From contig JAJSZP010000004.1 of NCBI GenBank assembly GCA_030262775.1, positions 1-40,783 on the forward strand: a DNA stretch of 40,783 nucleotides. Reading direction: 5' to 3'. Position 1 is the first letter of the stretch. The number at the start of each line of letters is the position of its first letter. Below the pieces are notes generated by a model. It searched no databases. It saw nothing but the letters and a program-made list of their open reading frames with translations, and had not been told where the DNA came from. This DNA is from Deltaproteobacteria bacterium. GTDB taxonomy: Bacteria; Desulfobacterota; Desulfobacteria; Desulfobacterales; ETH-SRB1. Positions 14,429-37,783 of this stretch are shown in pieces. A program made the position numbers and the translations under genes.

Positions 14429-14468
14429 ATAATAATTGCAAAGAGGTACTTGCGGTCAGGAAAGAATA

Positions 14469-15551
14469 ATGAAAAAGTCATTGATATTTATACTTTCCAT
14501 AATTTTTACCATTGCGCTTTGCAGCCAAGTTAAAGCCAGGGTGACCGGAGCATGCTCAAACTGCCATACTATGCACTACAGCCAGGGGGGGGCTTCGATG
14601 GCAACATATGGAGGGTTTGGTGAAGCTCCTTTTCAGTGTCTGGTTCGCGGCAACTGTTTGGGCTGCCACGGTCAAAGCGCTACCGGCGGTGAATACGCAA
14701 CATGGGGCTCCCAAAAAATTCCCCAGGTTTATCACGCTACGGGCGGTACAGACCTGGCAGCCGGAAATTTTAAATATATTGATACTTCTGATGCCAAAGG
14801 CCATAATATAGACCTCCTTGGCAACACTGAGGATACCATCCCGAATGTCGCTTCCAGCTTCCCTCCTGGCGATGAACATGGCAACTATACCGCTTATCTT
14901 ACAAAAGGCACCTTTACTTGTGCCGGAAAATTTGGCTGTCACGGTGATCGCGATGTAGAGGGCAATTTTGAAAGTATAAAAGGCGCCCATCATGGCGGAG
15001 TGAGCGGAGAGTGTGATGGAAGTGATCTTGCTAACAGCTATCGGTTTTTGAAAGGCGTAAAGGGCCATGAGAATACACATAATACCTATCCGTGGCAAAA
15101 TAGAAACTCCACCATCCATAATGAATATTATGGTGCTTCAGGCACAGGTACTGAGAGTACCGCATCAACTCCTGGTGGTAATACCATCAGCGGGCTTTGC
15201 GCTGAATGTCACGGGAATTTCCATCAAGGAGCTGATGTTACAGCGCAAAGTAAGCTAAACTCTCCATGGCTCCGTCATCCCACAGATATTGTTTTAACAA
15301 ATTCCGGCGAATATACATCCTACACGACTTACAGCATATTGGCTCCAGTAGCTAGGCCATCACTCTATGGCACAATAAACAATCTCGGAACAAACAACGT
15401 TGTTACCCCAGGAACAGATATTATCATGTGCCTGTCCTGCCACGGAGTTCATGCTACAAACTATTATAAGCTTATGCGGTGGGAATATGATAGTACAAGC
15501 CTTGCGACAGCCTTGGAAGGGTGTAATGTTTGTCATACGTCGAAAAATTGA
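14469..15551 (+). CDS. Multihaem cytochrome c (5 CXXCH + 1 CX5CH), exported
   Basis: Signal peptide MKKSLIFILSIIFTIALCSQVKA; CSNCH, CLGCH, CAGKFGCH, CAECH, CLSCH, CNVCH. Confidence 0.9.
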   Translation: MKKSLIFILSIIFTIALCSQVKARVTGACSNCHTMHYSQGGASMATYGGFGEAPFQCLVRGNCLGCHGQSATGGEYATWGSQKIPQVYHATGGTDLAAGNFKYIDTSDAKGHNIDLLGNTEDTIPNVASSFPPGDEHGNYTAYLTKGTFTCAGKFGCHGDRDVEGNFESIKGAHHGGVSGECDGSDLANSYRFLKGVKGHENTHNTYPWQNRNSTIHNEYYGASGTGTESTASTPGGNTISGLCAECHGNFHQGADVTAQSKLNSPWLRHPTDIVLTNSGEYTSYTTYSILAPVARPSLYGTINNLGTNNVVTPGTDIIMCLSCHGVHATNYYKLMRWEYDSTSLATALEGCNVCHTSKN

Positions 15552-15586
15552 ACAAATGAACCGTTCCGTAAAATCCGGGAGGCATA

Positions 15587-16825
15587 ATGAATAGCATAAA
15601 GACAATATTTTTATGCCTGGTAATCCTTATGCTTTTGGTTGGCGGTGTCAGTTATGCAGGGACTTATCTTGATTCGGCCCATGGCAATAGCACCTATGGT
15701 GTGGACCGAACTGTTATTGATGCAAAGTATGATGATTATTGTTCAGGAAACTGCGCCCACTGTCATGAGGCTCATGCAAGCTTGGGAGGGGATGAGCCTC
15801 TTCCTAACACCAGTACAGCAGAAGGACCGGATGAAGTCCTTCTCTTTTCAGAAGAAGAAAGTGTCTGCGAAACCTGTCATGATGGCAATCCGGCTGCCGA
15901 TAATATTCAAGCCCAGATTGACAAAACGTATGCCCATCCCACAGATGATTACTCCGGCGTGCATAAAGTATCGGAAAGCACAACAGCCGACATGGATCCA
16001 GGTGACTATGATGCAACCAACAGTCTTCATGCAGAATGCGTGGATTGTCACAATCCACACGCGGCAGGATCAACCGTACATACTGCAGAAACAAACACTG
16101 TAACCGCAACCTCTCCACTTTATAAGGTTTCTGGAGTCAATCCACCCTCCACGGCGGCATGGGTGACGCCTGCGGCTGCTTCATATACCGAAAAGCCTAC
16201 CAGTACAGGAATATCTTTTGAATACGAGCTTTGCTACAAATGCCACTCCTCCTGGACTGGACCAAACGATCCTGTGATAAGGGATACCGCCAAAGAATTC
16301 AATCCCGCCAATGCATCATACCATTCCGTTGAAGAGACTGGAAAGGCAAGCAGTTATGGCACCTATGTGAACCACTGGAACAAAGACAGCCTGATGTATT
16401 GCTCGGACTGCCATGGAAGCGAGATCTCCTCAGATCCGGCAGGACCTCATGGCTCTATAATCGCGCATATCCTTAAAGGAAACTATAACAGAGATACAGG
16501 GAAATCCAGCCTGAAGACCTCGGGCCACCTCTGTTTTGATTGCCATGATTACCAAACCTATAAAGCTGCCGGTACCAATTTAGGCGGTAGCGGCTTTGCC
16601 GAATTGGGATATGATAATCTACATACGATACATAATGATGCCGTATGTATGGACTGCCATTCTGCCCTTCCTCACGGAATAAACAGAAAGCACTTGATTG
16701 TTCTTACAAAGGATAATGCCGATTATATAAACGGCGCTAAAATTATGAGCTTTACAAATGTCGATGACCGTACCTATAGTAAAAGCAACTGTAGTACCAC
16801 TATTGGCTGTCATTCTAAAAAATGA
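15587..16825 (+). CDS. Multihaem cytochrome c (7 CXXCH + 1 C-terminal CX5CH), exported
   Basis: Signal peptide; CAHCH, CETCH, CVDCH, CYKCH, CSDCH, CFDCH, CMDCH, CSTTIGCH. Confidence 0.9.
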   Translation: MNSIKTIFLCLVILMLLVGGVSYAGTYLDSAHGNSTYGVDRTVIDAKYDDYCSGNCAHCHEAHASLGGDEPLPNTSTAEGPDEVLLFSEEESVCETCHDGNPAADNIQAQIDKTYAHPTDDYSGVHKVSESTTADMDPGDYDATNSLHAECVDCHNPHAAGSTVHTAETNTVTATSPLYKVSGVNPPSTAAWVTPAAASYTEKPTSTGISFEYELCYKCHSSWTGPNDPVIRDTAKEFNPANASYHSVEETGKASSYGTYVNHWNKDSLMYCSDCHGSEISSDPAGPHGSIIAHILKGNYNRDTGKSSLKTSGHLCFDCHDYQTYKAAGTNLGGSGFAELGYDNLHTIHNDAVCMDCHSALPHGINRKHLIVLTKDNADYINGAKIMSFTNVDDRTYSKSNCSTTIGCHSKK

Positions 16826-24892: not shown

Positions 24893-25675
24893 GTGAAAAT
24901 GGATAACATAGCTGGCTATATAGGCAGAAAAGCCACAAGCACTACAAACCACATCTTAAACTTATTCGCCTTTACATACAGAATATTCGCTCTAATATTT
25001 CAAAGACCCAGGGCAGGTAGAGCTCTTGTCAGAAGAGTGGCTCTTGAGCAGGTTTATTTTACCTGCGTTCAGGCGTTACTTATTATTATTCCGATAGCAC
25101 TTGTTTTTGGAAGCACGATAATCATACAATTTGCCAAGGTTTCAGGCCAGTACGATCTTGGCAAAATAATGGTAATGCTCATTGTTAGAGAGCTTGGGCC
25201 CGTGGTAACAGCTATTTTGGTCATATTAAGGTCAGCTACCGCTATAACCATAGAAATCAGCCATATGAATGTTTTCCATGAAATAGATGCAATCGAAATG
25301 GCGGGAATTGACCCGATGCGAATAGTCTGCCTTCCAAGATTAATCGGGATAACTTCCGCTATACTTTGCCTTTTTATTGTTTTTGATATAGTGGCTATTA
25401 TCGGAGGATATTTGATAGTCTGGGTATTTACATATATCCCAATGGGTGACTTTATGACACAGATAGGGAAAGCTATAACCGCCACCGATATTGCCGTTGG
25501 AATTATAAAGACTATATTCTTTGGAATCGCAATTACCGTTACATGCCTTAAGCATGGCTTAAGTATAAAAAAACTTACTACTGACGCACCGATCAGCGCT
25601 TCCAAAGCATCTGTTGAATGTTTTTTCTACTGCATAGTCATCAATGTTATCACATCAATATTGTTTTACATGTAG
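24893..25675 (+). CDS. MlaE/YrbE family (Mce-associated) permease
   Basis: ARALVRRVALEQVYFTCVQALLIIIPIALVFGSTIIIQF...VRELGPVVTAILVILRSATAITIEI...EIDAIEMAGIDPMRIVCLPRLIG. Confidence 0.88.
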   Translation: MKMDNIAGYIGRKATSTTNHILNLFAFTYRIFALIFQRPRAGRALVRRVALEQVYFTCVQALLIIIPIALVFGSTIIIQFAKVSGQYDLGKIMVMLIVRELGPVVTAILVILRSATAITIEISHMNVFHEIDAIEMAGIDPMRIVCLPRLIGITSAILCLFIVFDIVAIIGGYLIVWVFTYIPMGDFMTQIGKAITATDIAVGIIKTIFFGIAITVTCLKHGLSIKKLTTDAPISASKASVECFFYCIVINVITSILFYM

Positions 25676-25768
25676 AGTAAAGAGGTGAATAGACTAAAGG
25701 CGGAAGACGGAAGACTCTCAGCGAGCTTTAGCCTTCATCCTATCCAGCTATGTAGTTACGAGAAAAAA

Positions 25769-26437
25769 ATGTATTTGATCAACCTTGTTGATTATACTGT
25801 TAATTCCACAGAGGAAGATTGCGGTCTTGATAAATTAGACTTTGCTCTTTCCCTGGGTGATGCTTTTGCAATAATTGCTGATTCTCATGATCGTGCTCAC
25901 ATGTTTCTTAAAACACTTGCAATGCTTGTGAAACCTGTATCCGGCGCTTTCTACTTTAAAGATAAAAAAGTAGATTTTTCAGACTATCGAAACCTTTTGC
26001 CCTGCAAAAAAAAGATAGGCTATATTGCTTCGGATTCAGCAATGATTGGCAATATAACCGTCAGGGAAAATCTTCTTTACATGAGATACTATTTTGAAAA
26101 TTCACTTTCACTGCCTTTAGATGAAATAACGAAAAAATTATGCAAAAACTTTGGCATTTACGATAAGCTTGATATGCGTCCAGGAAGGCTTCGCAGCGTA
26201 GATTTGAGAGCCGCCATTGCAATACGTGAACTTATCAAGTCTCCTGATTTACTGCTTATTGAACGTCCTGAAGACTTCACAGGACATGCCAGTCTTGATC
26301 TCTTTACAGAAGTTTTGAGGGATATGGTGTTGACCAGACTGCCTATTGTCTTTATATCTTATGACAAAAATTTTATTGAAGAATGTTCCAACAAAAAAAT
26401 ATTTTTCAAAGGCGGAACTTTAGACATCATCAAATAG
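25769..26437 (+). CDS. MlaF-position ABC ATPase-like protein with degenerate catalytic motifs (candidate pseudo-ATPase)
   Basis: Overall ABC-ATPase order (LALSLGDAFAII...LKTLAMLVKPVSG...KIGYI...ITVRENL...AIAIRELIKSPDLLLIERPED) but no GxGKS/T, LSGG, DE or H-loop; track start 25685 likely too early. Confidence 0.75.
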   Translation: MYLINLVDYTVNSTEEDCGLDKLDFALSLGDAFAIIADSHDRAHMFLKTLAMLVKPVSGAFYFKDKKVDFSDYRNLLPCKKKIGYIASDSAMIGNITVRENLLYMRYYFENSLSLPLDEITKKLCKNFGIYDKLDMRPGRLRSVDLRAAIAIRELIKSPDLLLIERPEDFTGHASLDLFTEVLRDMVLTRLPIVFISYDKNFIEECSNKKIFFKGGTLDIIK

Positions 26438-27513: not shown

Positions 27514-28578
27514 ATGTATAACACTCGAAATATCCCATTGATATATTTAGTCATAGCTTTGATTGTATTATGCAATTTTTTCGGTTGTGTACAAAAGATC
27601 AGGATCACTGTGATCAAACCTGCCAAAGTATCCCTTCAAGACATCAGGACGCTGGCTATAATTAAATTTGATGGTATATACGAAGAGTTGGTTCGAAAAG
27701 CACTTTATAATAAAATTATTGAGGTCCAAAATTTAAATAATAAACCTGATCACATTCGAGTTATAAATATTGATCAAAACAGCTTTAAACATGTTGATGA
27801 CGATATTAACTTTTCACCTGATTCTGATAAGGTGCATGTAGATGGTGTTATTTCAGGCAGAGTTGCTGCCTCTATAAAAGACGTTCATGATACCGAAAAA
27901 GTAAAGATACAAGAGGGTACCGGTAAATATAAGAAAGACAAGAATGTATTTGGGCAGGAAGCAGAAGTGGAGATTCAACGAACTATTGTAAAAAAAGTTC
28001 CCTATGTTATGCGTCAGGCCAACATTATTGTAGATTTTAATATATTTAAGCTGAAAACAAAACAGCGTGTTTTTACTGATAAGGTTTCGGAACAATATAA
28101 AGAAAAGTTCGGTGGAGAAAATGAATATAGAAATTATTTAGGAAGCAGTATGAGTCAGCTTCCTTCGCAAAATCAAACCCTGAAGGAGCTTTCCGATAAA
28201 GTTGCCTCAAGGATTGTTGCAAAAATTTTTACTACCGAGATTGCCAGAATTGTAGAATTCGATAACGGCAGTAAATATGTGATGGGCATAGGCGGTAACA
28301 AGAAGGTGAAAGAAGGGATTAAATGCGCTAAGAACGGGAAATGGGAAAAGGGTGTAGAGATCTGGAAGGATGTGCTTAATACTGAACCGGAAAATTCGGC
28401 GGCTTTCTACAACCTGGGAATTGCTTATGAAAATATTGGAGATTTGGAAAACCTGAAGATAGCGCAAAAGATGTATAAAAAAGCGGTAAAAAATGGAGAC
28501 AAAGAAATTTATTTAGATGCTTTAGATAGAGTAAAGGCTACAATCAGTGATTTCCCAAAGGAATCGCATATAAGGTGA
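27514..28578 (+). CDS. Lipoprotein with C-terminal TPR, end of Mce operon
   Basis: Lipobox LCNFFGC; NGKWEKGVEIWKDVLNTEPENSAAFYNLGIAYENIGD TPR. Confidence 0.7.
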   Translation: MYNTRNIPLIYLVIALIVLCNFFGCVQKIRITVIKPAKVSLQDIRTLAIIKFDGIYEELVRKALYNKIIEVQNLNNKPDHIRVINIDQNSFKHVDDDINFSPDSDKVHVDGVISGRVAASIKDVHDTEKVKIQEGTGKYKKDKNVFGQEAEVEIQRTIVKKVPYVMRQANIIVDFNIFKLKTKQRVFTDKVSEQYKEKFGGENEYRNYLGSSMSQLPSQNQTLKELSDKVASRIVAKIFTTEIARIVEFDNGSKYVMGIGGNKKVKEGIKCAKNGKWEKGVEIWKDVLNTEPENSAAFYNLGIAYENIGDLENLKIAQKMYKKAVKNGDKEIYLDALDRVKATISDFPKESHIR

Positions 28579-28610: not shown

Positions 28611-28642
28611 AAGCCATCCAGACTCATGTCTGGATGGCTTTT
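28611..28642 (+). terminator. Terminator after Mce operon
   Basis: AAGCCATCCAGAC-TCAT-GTCTGGATGGCTT TTAT, 13-bp stem. Confidence 0.75.
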
Positions 28643-28666
28643 ATAGTTTATATGGAGGTTTATAAT

Positions 28667-29242
28667 TTGGCGAAACTGCTTGTAATTGATAATTACGATT
28701 CTTTTACTTACAATCTTGTTCAAATGTTTATGAATTATAATCTTTCTATTGAAGTGCACAGAAGTGACAAAATTTCTCTTGAGGGGGTAAAAGCAATATG
28801 CCCGGATTATGTACTTATCAGCCCAGGACCCAAAGGTCCATCCCATTCAGGGATATCTATCCCGCTGATTAAATTTCTAAACGGCGGAATACCTGTTCTG
28901 GGTGTTTGTTTGGGCATGCAGTGTATTAATGAAGCCTTCGGAGGCAGTACTGTCAGATCTTTTTTACCGGTACATGGAAAAGTCAGCATGATTTACCATA
29001 ATAATGATAAAATTTTCAAGGATCTTCCTTCTCCCTTTGCTGCAGCCAGATATCATTCATTGATGGTAAAACTTAATTCAAGAGAACTGGTTATAACCTC
29101 TCAAACCAGTGATGGTGTTATTATGGGGCTTTCGCACCATAAACTTCCGATTCACGGGGTACAGTTTCATCCGGAAAGCTTTCTTACAGAGAATGGATTT
29201 TTAATAGTTGAAAACTTTCTCAGACTTGGGTCACTTGCTTAA
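28667..29242 (+). CDS. pabA: Anthranilate/aminodeoxychorismate synthase glutamine amidotransferase (PabA/TrpG)
   Basis: LLVIDNYDSFTYNLVQMF...ISPGPKGPSHSG...VLGVCLGMQCI...GVQFHPES; TTG start after GGAGG. Confidence 0.92.
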   Translation: MAKLLVIDNYDSFTYNLVQMFMNYNLSIEVHRSDKISLEGVKAICPDYVLISPGPKGPSHSGISIPLIKFLNGGIPVLGVCLGMQCINEAFGGSTVRSFLPVHGKVSMIYHNNDKIFKDLPSPFAAARYHSLMVKLNSRELVITSQTSDGVIMGLSHHKLPIHGVQFHPESFLTENGFLIVENFLRLGSLA

Positions 29243-29253
29243 GGATTATTAAG

Positions 29254-31533
29254 TTGCTTATGGAACCTGTTGAATCTTCAATTGATAAAATAAAAAAAAT
29301 TGCCGGTGAGATTGATGGTATTTATACTGAACGTATCGAATTAGAAGGATCTTTCCTTGATTTTGCTGCTCGTTTTGCCTCAATGCCAGGCACGGTTATT
29401 CTTATGAGCGGAGGAGATAATGACTGTTCAAGATACCATATACTTGGCGCAAAACCCTGGCTGACTTTTACCGGACGTATCAATGACATGAAGATCATAG
29501 CCGAAAATCATAGCTTTAATTTTAGAGCAGATCCCTTTGATACGCTTCGGAATATCTTAAATGCCTACAGGCCGTATGCTCGGCATTTGCACGGCCATAA
29601 TATACAATCTCCTTTTGCTGCAGGCATTCTGGGATACCTGTCTTACGATCTTAAAGATTGTCTTGAAAAACTTCCCCGTACTTCTATAGATGATCTTTAT
29701 CTTCCGCATATATGCTTTTTTGCTCCTTCAATAATAGTTATACATGATCGAAAGAAAGACAGAACATCTCTTTTTATTCCTGAACGCGTTGTTTCCGGAA
29801 AAAGTGTTTTACACAACGACCTTGAAGTTTTTAAAAATATACAGAAATCAAAAAAACCGTTAATGGAGAGTTTCAGCGGAGATATAGATGGATTTCGGTC
29901 AAATTTTACAAGATCAAAATACATAAACGCGGTTAAGCAGATAAAAAAATATATTGCATCAGGCCATGTATATCAGGTGAATCTTTCCCAGCGATTTGAA
30001 ATGAATTTCGAAGGCAGCGCTTTTGGTCTGTTTAAAACGCTTTATAACCTTAATCCTGCGCCTTTTTTTTCTTATATAAATGCCGGAGATCATTTTATTG
30101 TTTCCACATCGCCCGAACGTTTTCTTCTTCAGTCGGGAGACCGGCTTGAAACCAGACCAATAAAGGGCACAATACCAAGGGGAGATACTTTAAAAAAGGA
30201 TAAAAAACTTGGTCTTGAGCTTAAAAACAGCAAAAAGGATGATGCCGAGCTTTCGATGATAGTTGATTTACTGCGTAATGATCTGGGAAAGATATGTGAG
30301 GCAGGATCTGTTCGCGTGTCTGAGCACAAAAGACTTGAGGCATACAAAAATGTTTTTCATCTTGTGTCAATTGTTGAAGGAGTTCCAGACAAAGGCCGTG
30401 ATGCAGTGAATATTATCAAAGCTGCATTTCCAGGTGGTTCGATAACAGGCTGCCCTAAAATCAGATCAATGGAAATAATAGATGAACTGGAGCCTCACAG
30501 ACGTCATATCTATACAGGTTCTACAGGATATATAAGTTTCCACGACACAATGGACCTTTCTATTGCTATCCGCACAGCCACAATAGTTAATAAAAAAATC
30601 ATATTTTCAGTCGGAGGAGGTATTGTCTTTGATTCAGATCCATTTGATGAGTACGATGAAACAATGCATAAGGGCAAAACACTTATGGAGGTCTTCAAAG
30701 GAAAAGAAAAAGCATTAAGCAGCGAAAACCATGTCTGGATTAATGGAAGCATTGAACCCATAGGCCTTGCTAAGATAAATATTACAGATCAGGGATTTTT
30801 ATTCGGATATGGTTTTTTTGAAACAATCAGGGTGGATAAAGGGAAACCTCAATACCTTGAAGAGCATATTTCGAGATTTAATCAAACCTGGCAGCGTCTT
30901 TTTTTTGAACAAATTCCGGATTTGACGTGGCAGGATATTATATATCAGGTAATTTACAGTAACGGCCTGCTGGAAGAAACTGCGGCAGTTAAAATTGTTG
31001 CGTCAAAAGGAAACAGCGAGAACTCTTCTTTAAATTTTACGCTTATAGTTATGGCCAGGCCATATACTCATCGGCTGGCAGAAAAAAGAGAACAGGGAGT
31101 AAATCTTGTTATTTACCCTAAGCCGCGGCAGACACCTCTTGCTGATTACAAAACCCTGAATTATTTATACTACCTGCTTGCTGGAGAATGGGCAAAAAGA
31201 AAGGGCGCTGATGAAGCGCTCATATTGAATCCAGATGATACGATTTCTGAAACAAATACAGCAAATATCCTGCTGATTAAGGATAAAACTTTCATAAGAC
31301 CGGTTTCGCCGCATGTGCTGCCCGGTATCATGGAAAAGGTTGTATGTGAACTTTTTTTAAGTTGGAATTATATATCGGAAAGCAAAAAGCTGTGCCCTGA
31401 AGATTTGTTTTTAGCTGATCAGGTTATTCTCACTAATTCACTTATTGGTGCTATTCCGGTACTGAGCATTGACGAAAAAAAACTAAAAAAACCCACAGAC
31501 ATTTGGCTGAAAATAAACGATGCAGTTTTATAA
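29254..31533 (+). CDS. Aminodeoxychorismate synthase component I fused to aminodeoxychorismate lyase (PabB-PabC)
   Basis: Chorismate-binding motifs (RPIKGTIPRG, ELSMIVDLLRNDLGKIC, AAFPGGSITGCPKIRSMEII) followed by class IV PLP domain (GFLFGYGFFETIRVDKGKP...EEHISRF...NPDDTISETNTANI). Confidence 0.92.
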   Translation: MLMEPVESSIDKIKKIAGEIDGIYTERIELEGSFLDFAARFASMPGTVILMSGGDNDCSRYHILGAKPWLTFTGRINDMKIIAENHSFNFRADPFDTLRNILNAYRPYARHLHGHNIQSPFAAGILGYLSYDLKDCLEKLPRTSIDDLYLPHICFFAPSIIVIHDRKKDRTSLFIPERVVSGKSVLHNDLEVFKNIQKSKKPLMESFSGDIDGFRSNFTRSKYINAVKQIKKYIASGHVYQVNLSQRFEMNFEGSAFGLFKTLYNLNPAPFFSYINAGDHFIVSTSPERFLLQSGDRLETRPIKGTIPRGDTLKKDKKLGLELKNSKKDDAELSMIVDLLRNDLGKICEAGSVRVSEHKRLEAYKNVFHLVSIVEGVPDKGRDAVNIIKAAFPGGSITGCPKIRSMEIIDELEPHRRHIYTGSTGYISFHDTMDLSIAIRTATIVNKKIIFSVGGGIVFDSDPFDEYDETMHKGKTLMEVFKGKEKALSSENHVWINGSIEPIGLAKINITDQGFLFGYGFFETIRVDKGKPQYLEEHISRFNQTWQRLFFEQIPDLTWQDIIYQVIYSNGLLEETAAVKIVASKGNSENSSLNFTLIVMARPYTHRLAEKREQGVNLVIYPKPRQTPLADYKTLNYLYYLLAGEWAKRKGADEALILNPDDTISETNTANILLIKDKTFIRPVSPHVLPGIMEKVVCELFLSWNYISESKKLCPEDLFLADQVILTNSLIGAIPVLSIDEKKLKKPTDIWLKINDAVL

Positions 31534-34021: not shown

Positions 34022-35695
34022 ATGGGAAAAAAGAGCTTGATCAAATCTACCGCAAAAAAGAAAACTAAATCTGCTAAAAAAAATGAGATAAAGAAGCCTG
34101 ATAAAAAGGCCAAAGTTACAGCAAAAGCAGAAACAAAGGCAGCAGCCAAAACTCGCAGCAAAAAAACCGTTGGAGCAGCAAAAAAGAAGAAGGTCTCATT
34201 AACGGATCTGATTTTAAAGAAATTTGAGGCCTGGAAGCCGGCTGAGGTTTTCAGGGCTGCCCCGGATGAGAAATATTTAAAGAATTTTGCTTCACCGCCG
34301 ATTGTTTCGGGCTTGAGTGATAAAGAAGCCAAGAGAATAAAAAAATTATTGCTTAAGAAGAGAGACATAGCGACTATCAGAGCTGAAATAAAGAAGGAAG
34401 CTGCTGAAAGAGAGGCAACAAAAAAAGCAGCAGCGAAAAAGGTAGCTGCAGAGAAGGCAGCAGCAGAGAAGGCAGCAGCGGCAGAGAAAGCAGTGGCAGA
34501 GAAAGCAGCAGCGGAAAAAGCAGCGGCAGAGAAAGCAGTGGCAGAGAAATTAGCGGCAGAAAAGAAAAAGGCTTACTTAAAGACTTTGCCTTTAAAAAAG
34601 TTTGAGGTTTGGAAGCCGGCCAAAATTTTCAGAGTTGCCCCGGATGAGGAATATTTAAAGAATTTTGCTTCACCGCCGATTGTTTCGGGCTTGAGTGATA
34701 AAGAAGCCAAGAGAATAAAAAAATTATTGCTTAAAAAGAGAGACATGGCGACTATCAGAGCCGAAATAAAGGAGGAAGCCGCTGAAAGAAAGGCGGCAGA
34801 AAAGGCCGCCGCAGAAAAGGCAGCCGTTGAAAGAGAAGCCGCTGAAAAGGCAGCCGTTGAAAGAGAAGCCGCTGAAAAGGCAACTATGAAAAAAGTAATT
34901 ATCGGTCTTGCATCTGGTTTTATTATTTTGGTTGCATTTATTCTCAGCGCAAGTTCTTCGAATAATAACAAATATTATATTAAAGAAAAGGCTGGAGTGC
35001 TTGAAATCTGGCAGGGCAGATATGCCCCTCTAGGCGAAGAGCGGATGATGAGTCTGCCCGGAGTACCGTTGCCCGAGCAAATTAATGCTGTTTATTCTAA
35101 AAACGAAGTATTTCCTCTTATTTTTAACTATTATGTCGACAAAGCAGACGCTATTGTAGGCATGTCGGATACTCCTGATTATGCGACTATAAAGTCATAC
35201 CTGAATAAAGCCTTGTTATTTGCAACAACAGGTGATCTTCGCGGGAAAGCTTATAGCCGTTTAAATAACATCAAGTTTAATGATTTAATGTATAAAGCAG
35301 GTGTAGCTGAAAGCAGAGGCGCTATTTCGGACCTTGATAAAGCGATGAGATATTTTGGACAGGCGTCATTGTTAAAAGTTGATCCCGGCAAATCCGATGT
35401 GGTGAAACAGAAAATTGAATCAATAAAAGAACAAAAGGCAGAGATGATAGAGGCTCAGGTATCTGAAAAAGCAGCGAGCGCTGCTTCCGGCAAACCTGAT
35501 GTGGTGGAACTAAAGATTGTGTCAGCAGAAGAACAAAGTGCAGAGATAAAAACTCCAATGGTTGAAGAATCAACGGATTCTGTTACCGTCGAACCTGATG
35601 TGGTTGAACAAAAGACTGAGTCAACACAAGAACAAAGCGCAGAGATAACGACCCCAATGATTAAAAAATCAACAGATTCTGTTTCCACCGAATAA
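34022..35695 (+). CDS. Lys/Ala-rich membrane-anchored protein with internal duplication and C-terminal repeats
   Basis: KKTKSAKKNEIKKPDKKAK basic N-term; FEAWKPAEVFR.../FEVWKPAKIFR... duplicated modules; AEKAAAEKA helices; TM VIIGLASGFIILVAFILSAS. Confidence 0.8.
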   Translation: MGKKSLIKSTAKKKTKSAKKNEIKKPDKKAKVTAKAETKAAAKTRSKKTVGAAKKKKVSLTDLILKKFEAWKPAEVFRAAPDEKYLKNFASPPIVSGLSDKEAKRIKKLLLKKRDIATIRAEIKKEAAEREATKKAAAKKVAAEKAAAEKAAAAEKAVAEKAAAEKAAAEKAVAEKLAAEKKKAYLKTLPLKKFEVWKPAKIFRVAPDEEYLKNFASPPIVSGLSDKEAKRIKKLLLKKRDMATIRAEIKEEAAERKAAEKAAAEKAAVEREAAEKAAVEREAAEKATMKKVIIGLASGFIILVAFILSASSSNNNKYYIKEKAGVLEIWQGRYAPLGEERMMSLPGVPLPEQINAVYSKNEVFPLIFNYYVDKADAIVGMSDTPDYATIKSYLNKALLFATTGDLRGKAYSRLNNIKFNDLMYKAGVAESRGAISDLDKAMRYFGQASLLKVDPGKSDVVKQKIESIKEQKAEMIEAQVSEKAASAASGKPDVVELKIVSAEEQSAEIKTPMVEESTDSVTVEPDVVEQKTESTQEQSAEITTPMIKKSTDSVSTE

Positions 35696-35823: not shown

Positions 35824-36801
35824 CTATCCCTTATACAAATGGCACCACACCTGGCGCATTTCTGTTTTTAATTCTTGTGGTTCTATCTTTCCGCATATAT
35901 CCATAACTTCCGGACAACGAGTGTGAAAATTGCATCCTGGCGGAGGTGAAGATGGAGAAGGAGTCTCTCCTTTGAGGACAATCTTTTTCTTTTTATAGAT
36001 TCCAGGTGTAGGAACAGCATTTATTAGAGCTTTTGTATAAGGATGCATCGGATTGTTTATTATATCAAAAGCAGGCCCTTGCTCAACAATTTTTCCAAGA
36101 TACATAACAGCTATACGGTTTGCTATGTTGCTTACTATGCTTATATCATGGGAGATAAAAATATATGAAAGATTATAGCTGTCCCTGAGATCCAGCAGAA
36201 GGTTTATGATCTGGGCCTGAACAGATACATCAAGGGCGCTGACAGGTTCGTCGCATACAAGGAGATCGGGCTTTAAGGATATAGACCTTGCAATGCTGAT
36301 CCGCTGGCGCTGTCCACCGGAAAATTCATGAGGATAGCGGTATATTGAGTTTTCATCAAGTCCGACTTCTTTCATAAGCCTTTTTGCATGATCTTCCTTA
36401 TTGTTTTTTATTATCTTATATTCGACAAGCCCTTCTGTAACAATATCAAGAACATTCATCCTGGGATTTAGAGAGGTTAAGGGATCCTGGAAAATCATCT
36501 GTATTTTTTTTCTCATTTTCTTCAGCTTTTTCCGCTTGAGATCAAGAAGATTCTTGCCTAAAAAAAGTATCTTTCCTTTTTGAGGTTCTTCCAGCCTTAA
36601 CAAGGTTCTTCCGAGTGTTGTTTTCCCGCATCCTGACTCGCCGACAAGGCCAAGCGTTTCTCCTTTGTATAGATGCATAGATATTCCATCAACAGCCTTA
36701 ACATATCCTTCCGTCCTTGCCATGATGCCACGTTTTATTGGAAACCAGGTTTTAAGATTTCTTATTTCAAGTATCGGTTGTTTAATTAATTGGTTGTCCA
36801 T
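35824..36801 (-). CDS. Dipeptide/oligopeptide ABC transporter ATP-binding protein (DppF/OppF-like)
   Basis: VGESGCGKTTLGRTLLRL, EFSGGQRQRISIARSI, LLVCDEPVSALDVSVQAQ; likely start MDNQLIKQ at 36801. Confidence 0.93.
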   Translation of the reverse strand: MDNQLIKQPILEIRNLKTWFPIKRGIMARTEGYVKAVDGISMHLYKGETLGLVGESGCGKTTLGRTLLRLEEPQKGKILFLGKNLLDLKRKKLKKMRKKIQMIFQDPLTSLNPRMNVLDIVTEGLVEYKIIKNNKEDHAKRLMKEVGLDENSIYRYPHEFSGGQRQRISIARSISLKPDLLVCDEPVSALDVSVQAQIINLLLDLRDSYNLSYIFISHDISIVSNIANRIAVMYLGKIVEQGPAFDIINNPMHPYTKALINAVPTPGIYKKKKIVLKGETPSPSSPPPGCNFHTRCPEVMDICGKIEPQELKTEMRQVWCHLYKG

Positions 36802-36820
36802 GTTATTTTCTCTTTGTTCT

Positions 36821-37783
36821 CTATACAAGAAAACACGCTGTTTTGTGGCCGTTGCCGAGATCAACAAGCTGTGGTTTTTCTTTTTTGCATCTATCAAAAG
36901 CCTGTGGGCATCTGTCGCGGAAATAGCAACCTGACGGATAGTTGAAAGGTGAAGGTACATAGCCATGAATGGGCATCAGCCTTTCGGCATCAGTTGATAA
37001 CTTTGGAACAGATTTGAGAAGTCCTTTGGTATAAGGATGTGCCGGTTTTGAAAAAATATCGTTTATATTTCCTTCCTCTACTATCCTGGAAGCATACATT
37101 ACAACTGCCCGGTCGCACATTTCCCAGATAACACCTATATCATGAGTAATTAAGAGTATAGAAGTGTGGCTTTGTCTCAGTTCCTTTATCAATTCAAAAA
37201 CCTGAGCCTGGGTGGTTACATCCAGTGCGGTTGTAGGTTCATCAGCTATAACAAGATCAGGCGTCAGCATTAGAGCCATTGCAATAATAACCCTTTGCTG
37301 CATACCGCCTGAAAGTTGGTAGGGGTATGAAAACATCCTTTCTCCTGCATCAGGAATACTTACTTTTTTAAGCCAGCTTTCAGCAATGTTCCAGGCCGTT
37401 TTTTTACTTATATTCTTATGCAGCATGAGGCCCTCTATCATCTGCTGTCCGATTTTGTGAAGGGGGGACAGAGCAGCAGCCGGTTCCTGAAAAATTATGC
37501 TGACAGCATTGCCCCTTATTTTCTTCATTTCACGGATATCCAGCTTTAACAGATCCTTGCTGCTGAATATTATCCTGCCTTTTTCAATCCTGCCTGCCGG
37601 TGAAGGAATAAGACGCAGTATGCTGAGAGCGGTTACAGATTTGCCACACCCTGATTCGCCGATCAGTCCGACTATTTCATTGTTTTTTATATGAAATGAG
37701 ACATCGTCGACCGCTTTAAAGACACCTTCGTCAGTTTCAAAGCTGACAGTAAGTTTATCGATTTCCAGCAATTTTTTGCTCAT
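36821..37783 (-). CDS. Dipeptide/oligopeptide ABC transporter ATP-binding protein (DppD/OppD-like)
   Basis: [52 protein letters not shown]. Confidence 0.93.

Follow-up and report, generated by a model that had tools for sequence, protein, structure and literature searches.

The ABC ATPase position of an Mce lipid-transport operon in the window (the whole stretch of 40,783 nucleotides analysed here) is held by a gene, psF (pseudo-ATPase), whose product is related to the MlaF-like ABC nucleotide-binding domains (NBDs) and carries none of their catalytic motifs. We hold with moderate confidence that psF has a structural role, as a pseudo-NBD, in a lipid bridge that spans the envelope and performs no ATP hydrolysis itself. 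The psF frame is intact and stands between an MlaE permease and an MCE-domain protein, an association seen both in Pfam matches and in synteny, and 93 nt separate the permease stop from psF and 51 nt psF from the Mce start (Table 1). A GTG at 25685 is a possible upstream start, but the orthologues start at the ATG at 25769, the start also chosen in the preliminary description of this DNA; on re-reading the sequence, the frame, the coordinates and all four motifs quoted in that description proved exact, and our results bear out its central claim that an intact Mce operon contains an ABC subunit with no catalytic function.

Table 1. Features of the psF locus in the window, with the evidence for each.
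Feature	Position	Strand	Evidence
MlaE-family permease	24899..25675	+	Pfam MlaE 3.8e-48; orthologues
psF, MlaF-like ABC nucleotide-binding domain minus catalytic motifs, 222 aa	25769..26437	+	Motif reading, Pfam, NCBIfam, orthologues, profile comparisons
Former Walker A, ADSHDRAH instead of GxxGxGK(S/T), aa 37-44	25877..25900	+	Alignment; Ala replaces the Lys in 92% of clade
Former Q-loop Gln, now Ser (S88)	26030..26032	+	Alignment
Post-Q-loop segment DSAMIGNITVREN, counterpart of MlaF DAALFDSMTVGEN	26033..26071	+	Conservation 0.74 vs 0.59 mean
Former ABC signature, LRSV instead of LSGG, aa 141-144	26189..26200	+	Alignment
Former Walker B and catalytic Glu, LLIERP instead of VLFDEP, aa 162-167	26252..26269	+	Alignment; ER replaces DE
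Former H-loop, SYD instead of SHD, aa 197-199	26357..26365	+	Alignment; switch His to Tyr
Mce/MlaD protein, 331 aa	26489..27484	+	Pfam MlaD 1.6e-14; follows psF in orthologous loci
Probable lipoprotein, TPR C-terminus (DUF6340)	27514..28578	+	DUF6340 3.1e-8; lipoprotein signal by eye

Every feature that marks a functional MlaF is missing from psF, namely the Walker A motif, the signature, the Walker B Asp with the catalytic Glu, the Q-loop Gln and the switch His, and the D-loop is also gone. When 38 sequences of the pseudo-ATPase clade were compared with 37 canonical MlaF sequences, conservation fell from 1.00 to 0.35 at the Q-loop Gln, from 0.98 to 0.53 in the D-loop and from 0.97 to 0.47 in the signature, which now lies under the family mean, whereas the segment that follows the Q-loop (DAALFDSMTVGEN in MlaF, DAAMISNRTIREN in the clade) is still conserved above that mean. 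By its position in ABC NBDs we take this region to be the groove that receives the coupling helix of the permease, so that the segment presumed to grip the coupling helix is retained in psF. The coupling helix of the permease is itself retained in comparison with canonical MlaE (EQIDAL / HEIDAI). New residues have also become fixed at former catalytic sites, with Asp at the second P-loop position in 89% of the clade and Ala in place of the Walker A Lys in 92%, and a Glu after the signature helix is fixed in 97%; since some of the lost catalytic positions hold new fixed residues, the pocket is not simply drifting. This fixation, beyond what would be expected of a relaxed surface, is what a regulatory subunit might display if its altered pocket bound another ligand or protein and gated the permease, but no ligand-binding motif was recognised in psF, and the replaced positions differ outside the clade of the window, which means that the wider subfamily has no new pocket in common, so that we regard a regulatory function as improbable.

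The homology of psF to ABC domains is, as judged by profile comparisons, distant but real. Pfam ABC_tran scores only 18.8 bits on psF, under its gathering cut-off of 25, and the top NCBIfam model is LolD (E=3.5e-11). A profile built from 25 psF orthologues (A1) matched 235 PDB sequences at E<=0.001, of which the best 60 are all ABC ATPases (top match PsdA, E=8.6e-22), and the comparison with an MlaF profile that the preliminary description had proposed gave a match across the whole NBD (hhalign against canonical MlaF, 98.6%, E=1e-15, 213 columns; GroEL control, 0.1%). An AlphaFold (AF2) model built from four input sequences is poor (pLDDT 48, pTM 0.51), and Foldseek matched this weak model to ABC NBDs including E. 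coli MlaF at a TM of about 0.45, which we count as weak support. The low Pfam score and the weak model are the two points in favour of a non-ABC fold with a chance resemblance to an ABC domain; against them stand the hhalign match to MlaF, the ABC NBDs among the PDB profile matches listed, the Foldseek matches and the Walker A motif that members of the sister clade retain at the identical alignment column, and we give such a chance resemblance hardly any credence. Because psF lies under the Pfam and NCBIfam cut-offs, automated annotation likely overlooks genes of this type. A published survey found MlaF by a generic MlaF profile together with synteny (PMC10665443), a method that could miss psF-type proteins, and our literature search, whose coverage was incomplete, turned up no published case of a dead ABC subunit or dead MlaF in an Mla/Mce operon.

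Orthologues of psF were sought by a protein search of 58 relatives and by searching 243 genomes of the order with a profile. They occur in 70 of the 243 genomes, none with internal stops, although the weakest one or two of the 70 (G239) are probably ordinary ABC ATPases, and in 50 of the 148 genomes with >=90% completeness and <=5% contamination; identities in the aligned set range from 34 to 91%, and a contig scan for psF relatives returned three close loci only. All orthologues lack the Walker A motif, the signature and the DE pair, and a loss common to every orthologue is neither chance nor a sequencing error. The order permease, psF, Mce protein is constant in all orthologous loci with enough contig, and the outer genes vary. 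In Nei-Gojobori comparisons, dN/dS is 0.15-0.35 for psF and 0.16-0.31 for the permease (both in the same two genera) and 0.18-0.28 for the Mce protein (the genus of the window); psF experiences purifying selection comparable to that on the neighbouring genes. The loss of the motifs, taken alone, would be compatible with a pseudogene or an assembly artefact, but the frames intact in 70/243 genomes, the purifying selection and the independent assemblies in other public records reject this explanation almost completely. The preliminary description was therefore right to deny decay, which orthologues, selection and synteny exclude. It had also named motif-bearing orthologues, a sequencing error and a fold other than an ABC domain as findings that would speak against it, and none of these was obtained; the motifs are retained only in relatives from the sister clade, where Walker A and the DE pair are present and the switch His is still missing.

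Those relatives belong to a wider MlaE permease subfamily, found phylum-wide by searching 395 genomes with a permease profile (A3). The motifs of the adjacent ATPase were scored at 119 loci, one of them a canonical locus truncated by a contig end, and the ATPase is complete at the other 37/37 canonical MlaE loci and at 0/81 subfamily loci. Nine of the 81 retain Walker A and D-E or D-D with the switch His absent, four retain GK(S/T) only, and the remaining 68 have no valid Walker A, three of these 68 having a His at the H-loop column. In a permease tree rooted on canonical MlaE, from which the long-branch loci L129, L130 and L201 were excluded, the subfamily forms one clade (100/100). Within it, the clade containing the window (100/97) has as its sister a clade of Walker A keepers (98/88); further keepers and losers are intermixed in a second clade. 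A single origin of the Walker A loss is rejected, as the losers grouped in 0% of the bootstrap trees, and on the assumption that Walker A did not re-evolve, the tree requires no fewer than three losses of it. We tentatively propose, with slightly less than even confidence, that this MlaE/Mce branch has repeatedly decommissioned its ABC motor across the phylum, losing the switch His, then the catalytic Glu and then Walker A, while the NBD was kept for its structure and the system became an ATP-free lipid conduit, perhaps reversed toward the outer membrane.

Complete loss of the ATPase gene is not claimed for the subfamily, because several loci scored as lacking it turned out to encode it at a greater distance downstream or in a different frame. 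Within one family of the subfamily, an MBL-fold hydrolase gene directly follows the permease at L166, L170 and L172 (G268, G305 and G395), and at L170 and L172 the eroded ATPase comes after it. Permeases with no adjacent MlaF-like gene are followed by a fructose-1,6-bisphosphatase-like gene at L177 and L192 (G345 and G445) and by a ParB-like gene at L174 and L185 (G456 and G327); these four permeases may stand alone or have partners elsewhere. The highly divergent MlaE loci L129 (G043) and L130 (G023) carry a fully degenerate ATPase of a different type, which may be a separate instance.

The search for a second, intact MlaF suggested in the preliminary description was successful: contig C85 of the same genome has a canonical locus with MlaE, an MlaF with all motifs (GQSGGGKS, LSGG, FDEPT, SHD) and MlaD, which brings the genome to two Mce proteins in total. 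Canonical MlaF is common among psF carriers, most of which encode canonical MlaFED. It is conceivable that an intact MlaF from another locus pairs with psF, or takes turns with it, to give one working or half-working motor, in the manner of the degenerate-site heterodimeric ABC transporters or of the shared mycobacterial MceG ATPase; the intact MlaF of this genome and of most carriers would allow it, asymmetric ABC dimers in which one site is degenerate have been described (PMC7756269) and several Mce systems can share one ATPase (PMC9947336). The co-occurrence of canonical MlaE with psF proves little, however, because almost all members of the phylum have canonical MlaE. In heterodimeric exporters, moreover, the degenerate NBD usually retains Walker A, which psF has lost. 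In five of 60 carriers (G049, G188, G197, G201 and G224), and also in G004, the only MlaE match is the psF-linked permease, and the top MlaF-like ATPase of these six genomes, which are drafts or 90-97% complete by score (G197 is one contig), reaches at most 39% identity, the level of unrelated ABC families. Since psF-linked permeases are carried by six genomes that have no recognisable MlaF, energisation in trans is not a general requirement. The degenerate-site exporters TM287/288, TAP and SUR1 also keep an NBD with altered motifs in a transporter, but there it has a competent NBD partner and its losses are usually confined to the catalytic Glu or to part of the signature, whereas psF has lost Walker A and everything else and has no partner in its operon. 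We consider a shared motor unlikely, though less so than a regulatory function; energisation in trans, a mixed complex included, is possible where an MlaF exists. Among the roles that the preliminary description had listed, a scaffold that works independently of ATP is thus favoured, and drive in trans keeps a chance in this genome, although the six other genomes speak against it. Five of the six genomes (all but G004) have an MlaC-family protein (PF05494) with canonical MlaE and MlaF undetected, which could be of the HpnM type or an unusual MlaC partner. PF05494 covers HpnM-type proteins as well, and these matches were for that reason not used as evidence.

The permease frame opens at a GTG at 24893, and orthologues point to the ATG at 24899 as its start. 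It retains the buried R-E pair and the Lys of MlaE, and the Asp250 of canonical MlaE is replaced by Asn (for the residues compared, see PMC7790496), which suggests that the permease may itself work differently. The Mce protein has one N-terminal transmembrane helix, one MCE domain and a long, helical, coiled-coil-like C-terminal part, with weak Pfam matches to coiled-coil families at aa 206-313. The TPR lipoprotein is a possible outer-membrane end of the system, and its orthologue or another TPR lipoprotein comes next in many, not all, relatives. Compared with MlaFEDB of E. coli, the operon shares an MlaE permease with the coupling helix, R-E and Lys retained, an adjacent ABC subunit and an MCE-domain MlaD; it differs in an ABC subunit without catalytic motifs, in the long helical tail of the Mce protein, in the Asn at the Asp250 equivalent and in having no gene for MlaB or MlaC in the operon. 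MlaC was also not found in the genome as a whole (92% complete).

Elongated MlaD bridges have been described for Veillonella (PMC10665443) and Brucella Mpc (PMC12436622). The operons of the minimal MlaEFD of Veillonella parvula and of Brucella MpcEFDA likewise encode an elongated Mce protein that is predicted to bridge the periplasm, MpcD has the same 331 aa as the Mce protein here, and Mpc also includes an outer-membrane lipoprotein; in both systems the ABC ATPase is well conserved (PMC10665443, PMC12436622), whereas here it is dead. PqiABC and LetAB are Mce lipid bridges whose inner-membrane proteins have no ATPase domain (PMC12436622), but their membrane protein is PqiA or LetA rather than MlaE, whereas in the psF system the ABC architecture remains with a dead NBD.

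As a structural subunit, psF would neither bind ATP in the usual way nor hydrolyse it. The MlaE-like permease dimer would probably carry two copies of psF as caps, each attached by its preserved groove for the coupling helix, which would keep the dimer assembled and closed on the cytoplasmic side, and the permease would in turn hold an Mce hexamer whose long helical tail spans the periplasm to the outer membrane, where the TPR lipoprotein, inconstant among relatives, may dock. Lipids would then pass along the bridge without ATP hydrolysis by the system itself, driven by a lipid gradient or another energy source, as Pqi and Let, which have no ATPase, are assumed to do. In E. coli, lipids pass from MlaD to MlaC in the absence of ATP, and hydrolysis reportedly blocks this spontaneous transfer (reviewed in PMC10212509). 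Lipid flow down a gradient would thus be unhindered in a system that does not hydrolyse ATP, and it may run outward. We infer the stoichiometry, the bridging of the periplasm, and the ATP-free transport and its direction.

These operons bear on how lipids are delivered to the outer membrane and on whether Mce systems depend on ATP. The preservation of psF across a large bacterial group suggests that lipids can be moved between membranes without a dedicated ATP motor, and a natural series of operons of similar architecture with full, partial or no ATPase motifs offers a direct probe of the role of ATP and allows the direction of lipid movement in a motor-less system to be asked. An NBD that never carries nucleotide and still has its permease contacts intact would reveal what an NBD contributes beyond hydrolysis.

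Elsewhere in the window, two multihaem c-type cytochrome-like ORFs with many CxxCH motifs stand in tandem at 14436-16825. The region downstream of the operon (28634-31533) holds a PabA-like amidotransferase and then a 759-aa ORF that resembles a PabB-PabC (aminodeoxychorismate synthase-lyase) fusion. A 557-aa protein at 34022-35695 has Lys/Ala/Glu-rich repeats and a duplicated segment, KFEAWKPAEVFRAAPDEKYLKNFASPPIVSGLSDKEAKRIKKLLLKKRD. On the opposite strand, 35824-37783 carries two OppD/OppF-type ATPase ORFs with all their motifs intact; as listed, the two overlap by 146 bases, and the second probably has a later start.
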